A DNA stretch of 16,969 bases, taken from assembly GCA_021780095.1 (NCBI GenBank), contig JAJXZK010000278.1, positions 1 through 16,969 on the forward strand, given 5' to 3'. The notes under the pieces are model-generated. The model worked only from the letters and a program-made list of their open reading frames with translations. It did not search any database and was not told the DNA's origin. The translations under genes were made by a program, and so were the position numbers. The stretch's first letter is position 1. The number at the start of each line of letters is the position of its first letter. Origin of the DNA: Acidobacteriota bacterium. Its GTDB lineage: Bacteria > Acidobacteriota > Terriglobia > Terriglobales > Acidobacteriaceae. Below, piece by piece: positions 9,197 to 13,162 of this stretch.

Positions 9197-11170
9197 ATGC
9201 TGAAGCGTTACGAAAACAAAGCGGTGGACGTGGAATGGCTGAACAGCAATTTCCCGTGCATGATGGCCTGCCCTGCGCACACAAATGCCGGCCGCTATGT
9301 TTCTTTGATTGCAGAAGGTCGATTTGAAGAGGCCTACAGGATTGCTCGCGACCCGAACCCATTGGCTAGTATTTGTGGGCGGGTCTGTGCGCATCCCTGC
9401 GAAACCGCCTGTCGCCGCGGAGCGATCGATCAGCCGATCGCGATCCGTGCACTGAAGCGTTTTCTGACCGAACGACATGGTCCTGAGTCGAAACACCCTG
9501 TCAACACCAATGAGGGGCGACTGCAGCCAAAGCTTCCCTACCGTGTTGCCGTGGTCGGAGGCGGTCCGGTGGGACTTTCCGCCGCACATGACCTGGCCTT
9601 GATGGGTTACTCCGTCACGATATTTGAAGCGGCTCCCGTTGCTGGCGGAATGCTGTACCTGGGCGTTCCCGAGTACCGGCTACCGCGCGATGTCGTGGAA
9701 GCGCAGGTGCGCGAAATTCTTGCCACGGGCGACATCACGCTGAAATTGAATCAGGCGGCAGGACGCGATTTCACCATCTCCGATCTGCGTCAGCAGGGTT
9801 TCCATGCCGTTTTGCTGGCGGTGGGCGCTCACAGCAGTCGCGATCTTTCCATTCCCGGCGTCAACCTTGACGGGGTCCACAAAGGAATTGACTTTCTGCT
9901 GAACGTGAATCTGGGATATCAGTTCACCATCGGCAAAAAAGTGATCGTGATTGGTGGCGGCAACGTGGCCATGGACGTGGCGCGCTCCGCGGCGCGTGAG
10001 GTCTTGCGTCAGCATGCTAGTGGCGTGGAGTCCCAGGAACCTTCGCAGGCGAATGAGGACGCCGTGGCGGCGCGGGAGATGATCGACGTTTCTCTGTCTG
10101 CATTGCGCCTGGGCGCTCAGGAAGTGAACCTGGTATGCCTCGAACCGCGCAATCAGATGCCGGCGGCGCTGGAAGAGATTGTCGAAGCGGAAGAAGAAGG
10201 GATCATTCTTCATCCGGGCTTCGGTCCCAGCCGCATCCTTGGCGGAAACGGCCGAGTCTCGGCGCTCGAAGTGTTGAAGACGAAGCGAGTCTTCGATGAG
10301 AGTGGACGATTCAACCCTTCATTTTATGAAGGCAGCGAATCGTTGCTGGAATGCGACACCATCATTATGGCCATCGGCCAGGCGCCCCGGCTCGATTTTC
10401 TGAAACCCGAGGACGGAGTGGAGATTTCGCGGCGTGGATTGATCGCCGTCAACCCACAGACTCTGATGACCTCCTCGGAAGGCGTCTTTGCGGGAGGCGA
10501 CTGTGTCTTCGGTCCACGATTGATCATCGACAGCGTGGCCGACGGCAAGCGCGCCGCCGTTGGCATCGACGAATATCTCCGTAAAGTCCAGCACCCGGAG
10601 CCAACCGTAGAAGTGGAGATTCTTGAGCGGCACAGTATGCCGCTCAACCTGCTCGACCTGATGCGACAACCCATTCCCGCACTGCCCCTCGCACGCCGCA
10701 CCGGCATGACAGAGGTTGAGGTCGGCTTCGACGAAGAGACGGCTCAGCGAGAAGCGCAGCGTTGCCTGCACTGTTGGGTCAACACCATATTTGAAGGCAA
10801 TGTTCACGACGGCAGCTTGTGTATCCTTTGCGGCGGGTGCGTCGATATATGCCCGGAAAATTGTCTGGAAGTTGTCAGCCTCGATCGATTCCAATTCGAT
10901 CCGGAGGTGGTGCAGCAGCTGGCGGATCGAGAGGGTCTGCTGAACGTTGAGTTGGACGACGTCAAGGCAGACGAACTTGGAATCATCTCTGGTTCCGTGA
11001 TGGTGAAAGACGAGACGCGCTGCATTCGGTGCGGCCTTTGTGCCGCGCGTTGTCCGGTGGGAACCATCACCATGGAGTCCTACAACCTGGTTCCGGCTGA
11101 GGTCACAGGCCTGATTTCTATCGAAGCCATCGACGCGCCGTTTCGGGCGGTCAGCGCGGAAAGAAAGTGA
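9197..11170 (+). CDS. FAD/NAD(P)-binding iron-sulfur oxidoreductase subunit of bc-type complex (GltD/NfnB-like)
   Basis: This 657-aa cytoplasmic flavoprotein starts with a cysteine-rich Fer4_20-type domain (Cys21, 25, 60, 64, 68, 72), as in the glutamate synthase small subunit and dihydropyrimidine dehydrogenase. The FAD motif GGGPVG is at 121-126, the NAD(P) motif GGGNVAMD at 253-260, and the FAD-closing GVFAGGD at 429-435. A C-terminal part has a CLHC pair (523, 526) and two 4Fe-4S ferredoxin motifs (Cys542, 545, 548, 552 and Cys609, 612, 615, 619). About 30 extra residues follow the NAD(P) motif. It lacks the glutaminase subunit partner and overlaps the Rieske gene by 4 bp, so it likely exchanges electrons between NAD(P)(H) and the bc-type complex. 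The ATG at 9197 follows GAGAAGG. Confidence 0.9.
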   Translation: MLKRYENKAVDVEWLNSNFPCMMACPAHTNAGRYVSLIAEGRFEEAYRIARDPNPLASICGRVCAHPCETACRRGAIDQPIAIRALKRFLTERHGPESKHPVNTNEGRLQPKLPYRVAVVGGGPVGLSAAHDLALMGYSVTIFEAAPVAGGMLYLGVPEYRLPRDVVEAQVREILATGDITLKLNQAAGRDFTISDLRQQGFHAVLLAVGAHSSRDLSIPGVNLDGVHKGIDFLLNVNLGYQFTIGKKVIVIGGGNVAMDVARSAAREVLRQHASGVESQEPSQANEDAVAAREMIDVSLSALRLGAQEVNLVCLEPRNQMPAALEEIVEAEEEGIILHPGFGPSRILGGNGRVSALEVLKTKRVFDESGRFNPSFYEGSESLLECDTIIMAIGQAPRLDFLKPEDGVEISRRGLIAVNPQTLMTSSEGVFAGGDCVFGPRLIIDSVADGKRAAVGIDEYLRKVQHPEPTVEVEILERHSMPLNLLDLMRQPIPALPLARRTGMTEVEVGFDEETAQREAQRCLHCWVNTIFEGNVHDGSLCILCGGCVDICPENCLEVVSLDRFQFDPEVVQQLADREGLLNVELDDVKADELGIISGSVMVKDETRCIRCGLCAARCPVGTITMESYNLVPAEVTGLISIEAIDAPFRAVSAERK

Positions 11171-11670
11171 GAACAGACGTGGCAGAAGAAAATAAACCCA
11201 AGTCCCCCGAGACGGAGCAAGAAATCAGCCGCCGCAGTTTCTTTACCAAGGTGGGGCTGGGATCGCTCGGTATAGCCTCCGCCGGAACCTTGGCCTTTGC
11301 CTATCAGTTCCTGTCGCCCAATGTTCTCTACGAGGCGTCGCCGATTGTGAATGTAGGCAACGCGCAAAGTTACGAGGTCAACTCCGTCACTCTACACGTG
11401 AAGTCTGCAATCTATTTGGTTCGTTTACCGGAAGGATTTTTCTCCCTGAGCGCCATCTGCACGCACCTGGGCTGTATGACGGCGTGGAAGCCGGATCTCG
11501 GCATCATTGCCTGCCCGTGTCATGGCAGCCATTTCAGCCGCGAAGGGAAAAAGCTGGCCGGCCCGGCGCCCAAGCCGCTGCCATGGCTCAAGACGTGGCT
11601 GAGCGATGACGGCGACCTGATGGTGGACCGCTCGACAACCATTCATCCGCTTCAGTTTTTGAGGATCTGA
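11167..11670 (+). CDS. Rieske 2Fe-2S protein of bc-type complex
   Basis: This 167-aa protein has a twin-arginine signal (SRRSFF at 21-26) with a hydrophobic anchor at about 29-47. The Rieske domain has box I CTHLGC (98-103) and box II CPCHGS (116-121). The ligands are Cys98, His100, Cys116 and His119, with Cys103-Cys118 as the expected disulfide. A GPAPKPLPW segment follows, equivalent to the Pro loop. It takes the first electron from quinol and passes it to a c-type cytochrome or cupredoxin at the periplasmic face. The GTG start at 11167 overlaps the preceding stop (GTGA) and has GGAAAG upstream; GTG 11179 is a weaker alternative. Cytochrome b starts 2 bp downstream. Loss of either box would abolish the call, but both are intact. 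Confidence 0.96.
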   Translation: MRTDVAEENKPKSPETEQEISRRSFFTKVGLGSLGIASAGTLAFAYQFLSPNVLYEASPIVNVGNAQSYEVNSVTLHVKSAIYLVRLPEGFFSLSAICTHLGCMTAWKPDLGIIACPCHGSHFSREGKKLAGPAPKPLPWLKTWLSDDGDLMVDRSTTIHPLQFLRI

Positions 11671-12461: not shown

Positions 12462-13162
12462 CAGAGCCGAAGGACTTTATCGCGGGAATAGGTTCCGATA
12501 TCAAGAAGTCGCAGAAGCGTGTCCTGTTCGTGACGCGGAGAACCTCCGCCCAGGTGCGAGTCTTCGATGAAGAACGGGTGCAGACCTATCCGGAAGCGTT
12601 GTTTCGGGCGGCGCTCGCTATCGAACTGCTGACCATCGCCCTGGTTTTGATTTCGCTTTTCTTCAACGCGCCGCTGGAAGGGCTTGCCGATCCAACCAAC
12701 ACACCCAATCCCGCCAAAGCTCCCTGGTACTTTCTGGGACTGCAGGAGATGTTGCATTATTTTCCGCCCGTCGTTGCCGGAGTCCTTATCCCCATGGTCC
12801 TGATCGTCGCGCTGGTGGTCATCCCCTACTTTAACGTGAACATCGAAGCGGACGGCCTGTTCCTGAAAAATCGACGGCGGCGGCTCAACATTTTCTATGC
12901 CGGGGCCATCGGGCTGTCGCTCTTTCTCTGGTTGTTTCATGTATACGTGGCGCTGATTCCAACATTGGTGATCGCTGCAATCATGCTGGTTGCAGCGTTC
13001 AGTTCGCCAACATCATCCCAACCGCTTCGTCGTTATCTCGCCTCAAAGCCTGTCTCGTGGTGGGTGATGACCTGGTTTCTCTTGGAACTAATCGTCCTCA
13101 CCGTAGTAGGTACTTTCTTTCGCGGGCCGGGCTGGTCGTGGGTATTGCCTTGGAGGAGCTAA
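12458..13162 (+). CDS. Cytochrome b C-terminal half (subunit IV-like)
   Basis: This 234-aa membrane protein has about five predicted segments (50-70, 105-125, 145-163, 165-182, 201-220), more than the three of plant subunit IV. The family block PNPAKAPWYFLGLQEMLHYF spans 84-103. At the position of the Qo-site PEWY motif it reads APWY (88-91), so the usual Glu that accepts a quinol proton is absent. Similar KAPWYF variants are, to my knowledge, found in other Rieske/cytochrome b operons with multihaem partners. A C-terminal RGPGWSW segment follows the last helix. It completes the quinol-oxidation site with the upstream cytochrome b. Translation is coupled by a 4-bp overlap upstream, and the octahaem gene starts directly after its stop. 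Confidence 0.93.
   Translation: MTEPKDFIAGIGSDIKKSQKRVLFVTRRTSAQVRVFDEERVQTYPEALFRAALAIELLTIALVLISLFFNAPLEGLADPTNTPNPAKAPWYFLGLQEMLHYFPPVVAGVLIPMVLIVALVVIPYFNVNIEADGLFLKNRRRRLNIFYAGAIGLSLFLWLFHVYVALIPTLVIAAIMLVAAFSSPTSSQPLRRYLASKPVSWWVMTWFLLELIVLTVVGTFFRGPGWSWVLPWRS

Follow-up and report, generated by a model that had tools for sequence, protein, structure and literature searches.

Gene clusters of Acidobacteriota that join an NAD(H)-type flavoprotein to a Rieske/cytochrome b complex: candidates for quinol-driven NAD+ reduction

Textbook cytochrome bc complexes return the low-potential electron of quinol oxidation to quinone. A bc complex that makes NAD(P)H is an open proposal for anammox bacteria: NAD(P) reduction through quinol bifurcation has been put forward for two Rieske/cytochrome b complexes of Kuenenia stuttgartiensis, Kustd1480-1485 and Kuste4569-4574 (PMC12954380, Hauser et al., 2025; proposal of Kartal et al. 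cited therein). Here, we describe the same gene partnership in a large and conserved group of clusters of soil Acidobacteriota, starting from a stretch of 16,969 nucleotides (hereafter the window; contig JAJXZK010000278.1, assembly GCA_021780095.1) of an Acidobacteriota bacterium (Terriglobales; Acidobacteriaceae). In the window, a GltD/NfnB-like flavoprotein with predicted FAD, NAD(H) and Fe-S sites is encoded directly before a Rieske protein and a split cytochrome b, and in the phylum this flavoprotein is tied to such genes nearly everywhere it was found. Genes, motifs, conservation, genomic linkage and co-inheritance are all plainly there; the reading we place on them, that quinol oxidation is split between a high-potential acceptor and NAD+, has in our judgment an even chance of being right. 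If it is, respiring cells gain another way to obtain reducing power, and the Acidobacteriota clusters would make the idea of an NAD(P)H-making bc complex testable outside anammox.

The genes in question form one run on the plus strand (8557–15948), in the order cupredoxin-like protein, flavoprotein, Rieske protein, cytochrome b6-like subunit, subunit IV, octahaem cytochrome c and mono-haem Ig-like protein. The four core open reading frames (ORFs), those of the flavoprotein (9197–11170), the Rieske protein (11167–11670), the cytochrome b6-like subunit (11673–12461) and subunit IV (12458–13162), are all open on this strand, and their products match Fer4_20, Pyr_redox_2 and Fer4 (flavoprotein), Rieske, Cytochrome_B and Cytochrom_B_C of Pfam above cut-off. 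An initial annotation of the window had ended the unit at 13162; it extends further, through the octahaem cytochrome c and then the mono-haem protein. The same annotation had noted an overlap of the flavoprotein and Rieske genes, which is indeed present: the GTG start of the latter at 11167 overlaps the TGA stop of the former (11168–11170) as GTGA (11167–11170). In relatives, this overlap is variable, as the spacing differs and it is not universally kept. The cytochrome b and subunit IV genes overlap as ATGA.

How tightly is the flavoprotein bound to the Rieske and cytochrome b (Rieske/b) genes? The nearest loci come from metagenome-assembled genomes of Acidobacteria, with flavoprotein identities of 97 and 96%. 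Rieske and cytochrome b genes lie directly downstream of the flavoprotein in 78 of 80 close loci, the contig ending there in the other two (L042 and L073), so that the adjacency is not a matter of chance; all seven genes keep the same order and strand in 67 of the 80. A survey of the phylum covered 396 Acidobacteriota genomes, with the flavoprotein subgroup defined by an E-value cut (E ≤ 1e-100) and cytochrome b matched at E ≤ 1e-60; its counts are lower bounds, drawn from up to six cytochrome b and three flavoprotein candidates scored per genome and from the best 150 cytochrome b places. The subgroup was found at no fewer than 98 places (at least 88 of the genomes) and a cytochrome b match in at least 158 genomes. 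At 56 of the 98 places a listed cytochrome b lies less than 1.5 kb downstream; another 25 have one on the same strand within 12 kb, including one doubtful case (G295:C57, cytochrome b at 11 kb), and none was listed for the remaining 17. Sixteen of these were fetched (G389:C254 was left out): cytochrome b lies within 0.8 kb on the same strand in 14, one (G176, L202) is a contig edge with a Rieske piece, and one (G013:C17) has no cytochrome b match. In total, cytochrome b is within 1.5 kb at 70 places and linked on the same strand at 95. The linkage persists though gene order (flavoprotein first or last) and the form of cytochrome b (split or fused) differ. The initial annotation had asked for this neighborhood to be examined, and would have dropped the link had the subgroup lain mostly away from Rieske/b genes; with 95 of 98 places linked, it does not.

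The subgroup also stands apart in score: in six genomes its main match reaches at least 342 bits and paralogues at most 204. Six of the eight paralogues have no listed cytochrome b on their contigs; in G209, which holds the other two, more than 2 Mb separates them from the listed ones. A control on the short flanks of the paralogues (Rieske/b genes in 0 of 8) was discarded, since these flanks are too short and two loci with linked genes (L338 and L341) show none either. Several flavoprotein-bearing clusters sit in single-contig genomes (G101, G160, G209 and G382). Four cytochrome b matches contain one in-frame stop each (G004:C345, G261:C12, G262:C253 and G205:C2).

Linkage is accompanied by co-inheritance. 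Among 168 cytochrome b rows, 118 bear the flavoprotein, 42 are without it and 8 are of unknown state. A row was taken as bearing on a match of at least 180 bits anywhere in the fetched locus (97 rows, window included) or on a listing at about 5 kb (21 rows), and as without when none was seen in about 2.4 kb upstream and 1.9 kb downstream for most loci, or in 16–20 kb in L167, L188–L190 and L199–L201; the eight loci with clipped or unexamined surroundings were excluded from these counts. In a quick maximum-likelihood tree of 160 rows, none identical, which gave long-branch warnings, all 118 flavoprotein-bearing rows fall on one side of a single branch, with a Shimodaira–Hasegawa-like approximate likelihood ratio test (SH-aLRT) support of 98. 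The flavoprotein is thus co-inherited with one branch of cytochrome b. Three loci (L199, L200 and L201) have a window-like order of cupredoxin, Rieske protein, cytochrome b and octahaem cytochrome c without the flavoprotein; similar gene order with and without it offers a natural comparison.

The flavoprotein consists of 657 amino acids. As the initial annotation had it, the protein is GltD/NfnB-like with FAD and NAD(P) sites and up to four Fe-S centres: Pfam gives the order Fer4_20, FAD/NAD domains, RCLxC motif and two ferredoxin-type motifs, and sixteen cysteines (C21, 25, 60, 64, 68, 72, 523, 526, 542, 545, 548, 552, 609, 612, 615 and 619) are each present in at least 78 of 79 rows. In a diverse set of 24 rows, all are kept except C60, which is missing in one, so that the N-terminal group C21–C72 (9257–9412) is present in 23 or 24 of them; the RCLHC motif and two four-cysteine motifs near the C-terminus (10763–11053; Pfam Fer4 and Fer4_7) are likewise conserved. 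Sixteen cysteines provide predicted room for four [4Fe-4S] clusters, two of which would be formed by C21–C72 together with C523 and C526. An AlphaFold2 (AF2) model (pLDDT 81, pTM 0.82; residues 270–305 poorly predicted) resembles NfnABC, StnABC, NfnI/NfnB, GltD and DPD, the best Foldseek matches being 9bov, 8oh5 and 9n5u; the best NCBIfam model, PRK12771, is under cut-off. Hydropathy gives no convincing transmembrane (TM) helix or signal peptide, and the protein is therefore probably cytoplasmic. Identity with GltD itself, the glutamate synthase small subunit, was rejected, since there is no GltB partner and the NCBIfam gltA/gltD models are under cut-off; in agreement with the initial annotation, a Pfam scan of 13 window proteins shows no glutamate synthase large subunit.

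Which nicotinamide would it use? As a rule, a glutamate that closes the second strand of the NAD domain favors NAD(H), and arginines there favor NADP(H). The flavoprotein has Cys-Leu-Glu at this point, and the five PDB relatives compared all have Tyr-Arg-Arg. Of 201 fetched loci with a strong match, several of which span one and the same gene, 200 have this glutamate, Glu316 (10142–10144), and one (L245) has lysine. The eight paralogues have Tyr-Arg-Arg in six cases and another sequence in one, and one is not alignable there. The rule is not absolute, because two relatives with Tyr-Arg-Arg belong to entries whose titles call them NAD(H)-bound. Glu316 nevertheless suggests NAD(H) rather than NADP(H); the nicotinamide site of the initial annotation stands, and its NAD(P) narrows to the likelier NAD(H).

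The membrane part had been annotated as a bc-type complex with a Rieske protein and split cytochrome b. Its genes are confirmed, and the type can be refined to b6. The four haem b ligands of the cytochrome b6-like subunit (H113, H127, H214 and H229) are each found in 70 of 70 rows, and they are also invariant across the aligned rows with and without the flavoprotein. Subunit IV has five TM helices as predicted by hydropathy and AF2 (44–68, 103–128, 139–159, 163–180 and 199–220, at a mean pLDDT of only 59.6), and APWY replaces PEWY in it, as is the case in rows both with and without the flavoprotein. The position of b6 Cys35, which binds haem c_N, aligns with Tyr62 (11856–11858) of the window. 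This cysteine occurs in none of 117 aligned flavoprotein-bearing rows and in 17 of 42 rows without the flavoprotein, and all 17 carriers also have the glutamate expected in subunit IV as the other ligand, a position occupied by alanine in the window. The glutamate by itself was rejected as a correlate: besides 17 of 17 cysteine carriers, flavoprotein-bearing rows have it too (51 of the 95 close ones and all 21 distant ones), by a pattern match that misread some rows. The Rieske protein, with its CTHLGC and CPCHGSHF motifs, finds its best PDB matches in two Rieske proteins of Kuenenia (9rk4 and 9rk3, at 80.7 and 70.6 bits; the next at 60.8) and has a Ser/Phe pair as in Kustd1480, which is also seen in 17 of 42 rows without the flavoprotein.

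What could take up the high-potential electron? Three groups of clusters adjoin candidate partners, as counted in genomes chosen because they belong to these groups. In all 24 genomes of the first, cytochrome b and the flavoprotein flank a COX1-family gene of the same strand. In one such locus (L157, 3627–9380) COX1 is followed by FixO, from which neighbor the cbb3 type is deduced, and FixG/CcoG lies past the flavoprotein; in another (L320, 7678–14377) similarity reveals the same cco-like arrangement, the flavoprotein being between ccoO-like and FixG/CcoG-like genes. In the second, a family search found NosZ within about 5 kb on the same contig in 14 of 15 genomes, the fifteenth having a partial copy at a contig edge. 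NosZ is also present in four further loci, and that of L162 belongs to the Sec-dependent type (831 bits, cut-off 625). To judge from a title cited in PMC11409646, N2O respiration of clade II can rely on a Rieske/cytochrome bc complex. In the third, a molybdopterin enzyme is nearby on the same contig in 13 of 14 genomes; that of L316 exceeds the cut-off of the DMSO-reductase type II model (1179 bits), and those of L315 and L318 are divergent and below it. As to whether these groups are clades, the cbb3 rows form one side of a branch of the tree, though with a support of 8; the NosZ label requires 4 changes and the molybdoenzyme label 8, many rows among them having unchecked surroundings.

The anammox precedent named in the initial annotation is real. 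Like the Kuenenia complexes, the window has a b6-like four-helix cytochrome b with a five-TM-helix subunit IV (its model is of low confidence), a multihaem cytochrome c with 8 CxxCH motifs (13163–15223) standing in for cytochrome f, and an NAD(P) oxidoreductase in the operon with FAD and the cysteines of four Fe-S clusters, the number found in the Kuenenia models (PMC12954380). Unlike those models, in which subunit IV has five helices and haem c_N is kept with a glutamate ligand, the window has Tyr62 and no c_N cysteine. Its operon also differs in placing the flavoprotein gene first and in including a cupredoxin, with no HAO-like protein seen. His44 of the cytochrome b6-like subunit (11802–11804; 70 of 70 rows) is the probable counterpart of the proposed ligand of an extra haem at the dimer interface (Kuste4571 His43/Kustd1481 His62), with which it was equated by motif, rough spacing and a later Arg/Lys pair; the His-to-Arg spacing is 204 in Kuenenia, from residue numbers in PMC12954380, and 190 in the window. 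The same paper gives Rieske potentials of +303 and +335 mV, the latter for Kustd1480, and names the prevention of quinone reduction as the far larger problem of the anammox proposal. Further anammox papers, in the portions available, name these clusters without adding to the mechanism. When cytochrome b and the NAD(P) subunit of Kuenenia were sought by protein search, the organism names given among the best 120 of 8000 matches of each search are all of Acidobacteriota.

An outline of the proposed process is as follows: a complex of the Rieske/cytochrome b6 type, akin to mitochondrial complex III and with its NAD(H) subunit on the cytoplasmic side, would oxidise quinol at the periplasmic side. 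The Rieske protein would take one electron and pass it by way of the octahaem cytochrome c, and probably also the cupredoxin, to an acceptor of high potential. The second electron would travel along haems b_P and b_N, perhaps also a third haem between the monomers of the dimer, and from there over the four Fe-S clusters and FAD to NAD+, so that the downhill branch would pay for NADH made from quinol. We infer the physical assembly, the Fe-S route, the NAD specificity and the direction of flow. The suggestion of the initial annotation, that the low-potential electron or reverse flow may reach NAD(P), finds partial support. As far as can be read from sequence, the anatomy fits electron movement between NAD(H) and the b haems, and quinol-driven NAD+ reduction is favored on two grounds: the high-potential branch needs a strong oxidant, for which neighboring genes could provide in three of the groups, and the c_N cysteine is missing. 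A wider view, held more tentatively and with somewhat less than even confidence, is that of an Acidobacteriota clade of quinol-bifurcating NAD+ reductases, in which no c_N route leads to quinone, the low-potential electron goes to NAD+ and the outlet has been swapped among cytochromes/cupredoxin, a cbb3-type oxidase, nitrous oxide reductase and a DMSO-reductase-type molybdoenzyme. All 8 genomes tested contain COX1-family and complex I 49-kDa-family proteins, and 7 of them a second cytochrome b, so that the flavoprotein-linked unit is an extra complex.

Several points weigh against this picture. With complex I-family proteins and haem-copper oxidases in all eight genomes tested, it is not evident why quinol-made NADH should be needed, and two window-type operons (L323 and L324, 19.5 kb each) show no terminal reductase among the ORFs compared or scanned. 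Loss of the c_N cysteine is a single event on the tree, with no independent pairs, so that its absence is a property of the clade and not proof of a causal link. His44 is in every aligned row, 116 with the flavoprotein and 42 without; in the latter R234 is also found in 42 of 42 and K235 in 38 (arginine in the rest). The interface histidine was therefore rejected as a marker of NAD-linked complexes, and caution is due wherever it is argued to bind an extra haem, since it is not diagnostic of them. The spacing of 204 seen in Kuenenia occurs in 24 of 42 rows without the flavoprotein and in no bearer read (190–202); among the former it is found in 23 of 25 rows without the c_N cysteine and 1 of 17 with it, the other 16 carriers having 209. 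Finally, the Rieske protein of L167, a locus without the flavoprotein, matches Kustd1480 at 149 bits versus 70.6 for that of the window. Comparison of the Rieske proteins thus suggests that the window and Kuenenia complexes are on separate branches, and from this similarity and the spacing the NAD partnership has probably been gained or lost more than once. L188–L190 are of the same flavoprotein-less type as L167.

Could the electrons run the other way? The flavoprotein might oxidise NADH and pass electrons through the Fe-S clusters to haem b_N and quinone at the cytoplasmic side, while the same complex oxidises quinol, giving a one-piece module from NADH to cytochrome c. The wiring is the same with the flow reversed, Glu316 suggests NAD(H), which is the usual catabolic cofactor, a haem-copper oxidase family is present in 8 of 8 genomes tested, and the groups adjoin oxidase or NosZ genes. 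Such a module would, however, waste the energy step from NADH to quinone despite complex I-family proteins in all eight genomes, and the haem c_N cysteine is absent; for the anammox organism, flow from NADH has been rated unlikely by the authors (PMC12954380). We consider it less likely than not here, though the likeliest of the rival readings. Quite improbable is a flavoprotein that serves as no subunit but as electron donor for maturing neighboring enzymes, for example in copper reduction via CcoG or in NosZ maturation. Its place between ccoO-like and FixG/CcoG-like genes (L157 and L320) and beside NosZ, a copper enzyme, in another group would suit this role, but the window type has it directly before the Rieske gene with no oxidase or NosZ seen nearby, and the terminal enzymes differ yet the cytochrome b branch is one. 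There is similarly little chance that a soluble GltD-like transhydrogenase or ferredoxin reductase is merely a genomic neighbor co-regulated with respiration, as the lack of a TM anchor and one place (G013:C17; L155, 4980–8974), where the subgroup flavoprotein is followed by a 136-amino-acid Rieske-type protein and an alginate-export-like protein with no cytochrome b match, might suggest, against linkage at 95 of 98 places and one-branch co-inheritance.

Other known systems share parts with these complexes. The bifurcating enzymes NfnABC and StnABC (9bov, 9n5u and 8oh5) have the fold and order of the GltD-like part, but the window flavoprotein differs in having Glu for Tyr-Arg-Arg and Rieske/cytochrome b genes as partners. 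Cytochrome b6f shares the split cytochrome b, the b-haem ligands and the Rieske protein; unlike it, the window has no cytochrome f found, no c_N cysteine, a predicted five-helix subunit IV, APWY and an NAD subunit. Among NCBIfam models, ExtP, ExtQ and ExtS of selenite/tellurite reduction operons come nearest in the case of cytochrome b and subunit IV and are among the better ones for cytochrome c, at 262, 52 and 99 bits, all under their curated cut-offs (290, 150 and 100). Searches of the open-licence literature, to which subscription journals do not belong, found no account of such complexes in Acidobacteria.

The other genes of the run and of the window are as follows. The first product (8557–9138) is a secreted cupredoxin-like protein with a carboxypeptidase-regulatory domain (Pfam Copper-bind, 25 bits against a cut-off of 21.2, and CarboxypepD_reg), matched in 79 of 80 close loci and likely a periplasmic electron carrier. 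The octahaem cytochrome c has one N-terminal TM helix, and both it and the mono-haem c protein with an Ig-like domain (15220–15948) are matched in 68 of the 80. Downstream on the plus strand, a product clipped by the window end (16132–16969), with one N-terminal CxxCH and no Pfam match, is porin-like by our reading and matched in 52 of 80 close loci; its membership of the operon is uncertain. Such a porin-like CxxCH protein recurs beside many of these operons, either upstream or downstream. Farther upstream, the window carries plus-strand HlyD-type adaptor and ABC ATPase genes and minus-strand genes for carboxypeptidase-regulatory and GWxTD proteins (564–6778), as well as a tRNA-Lys(CTT) on the minus strand (377–452).

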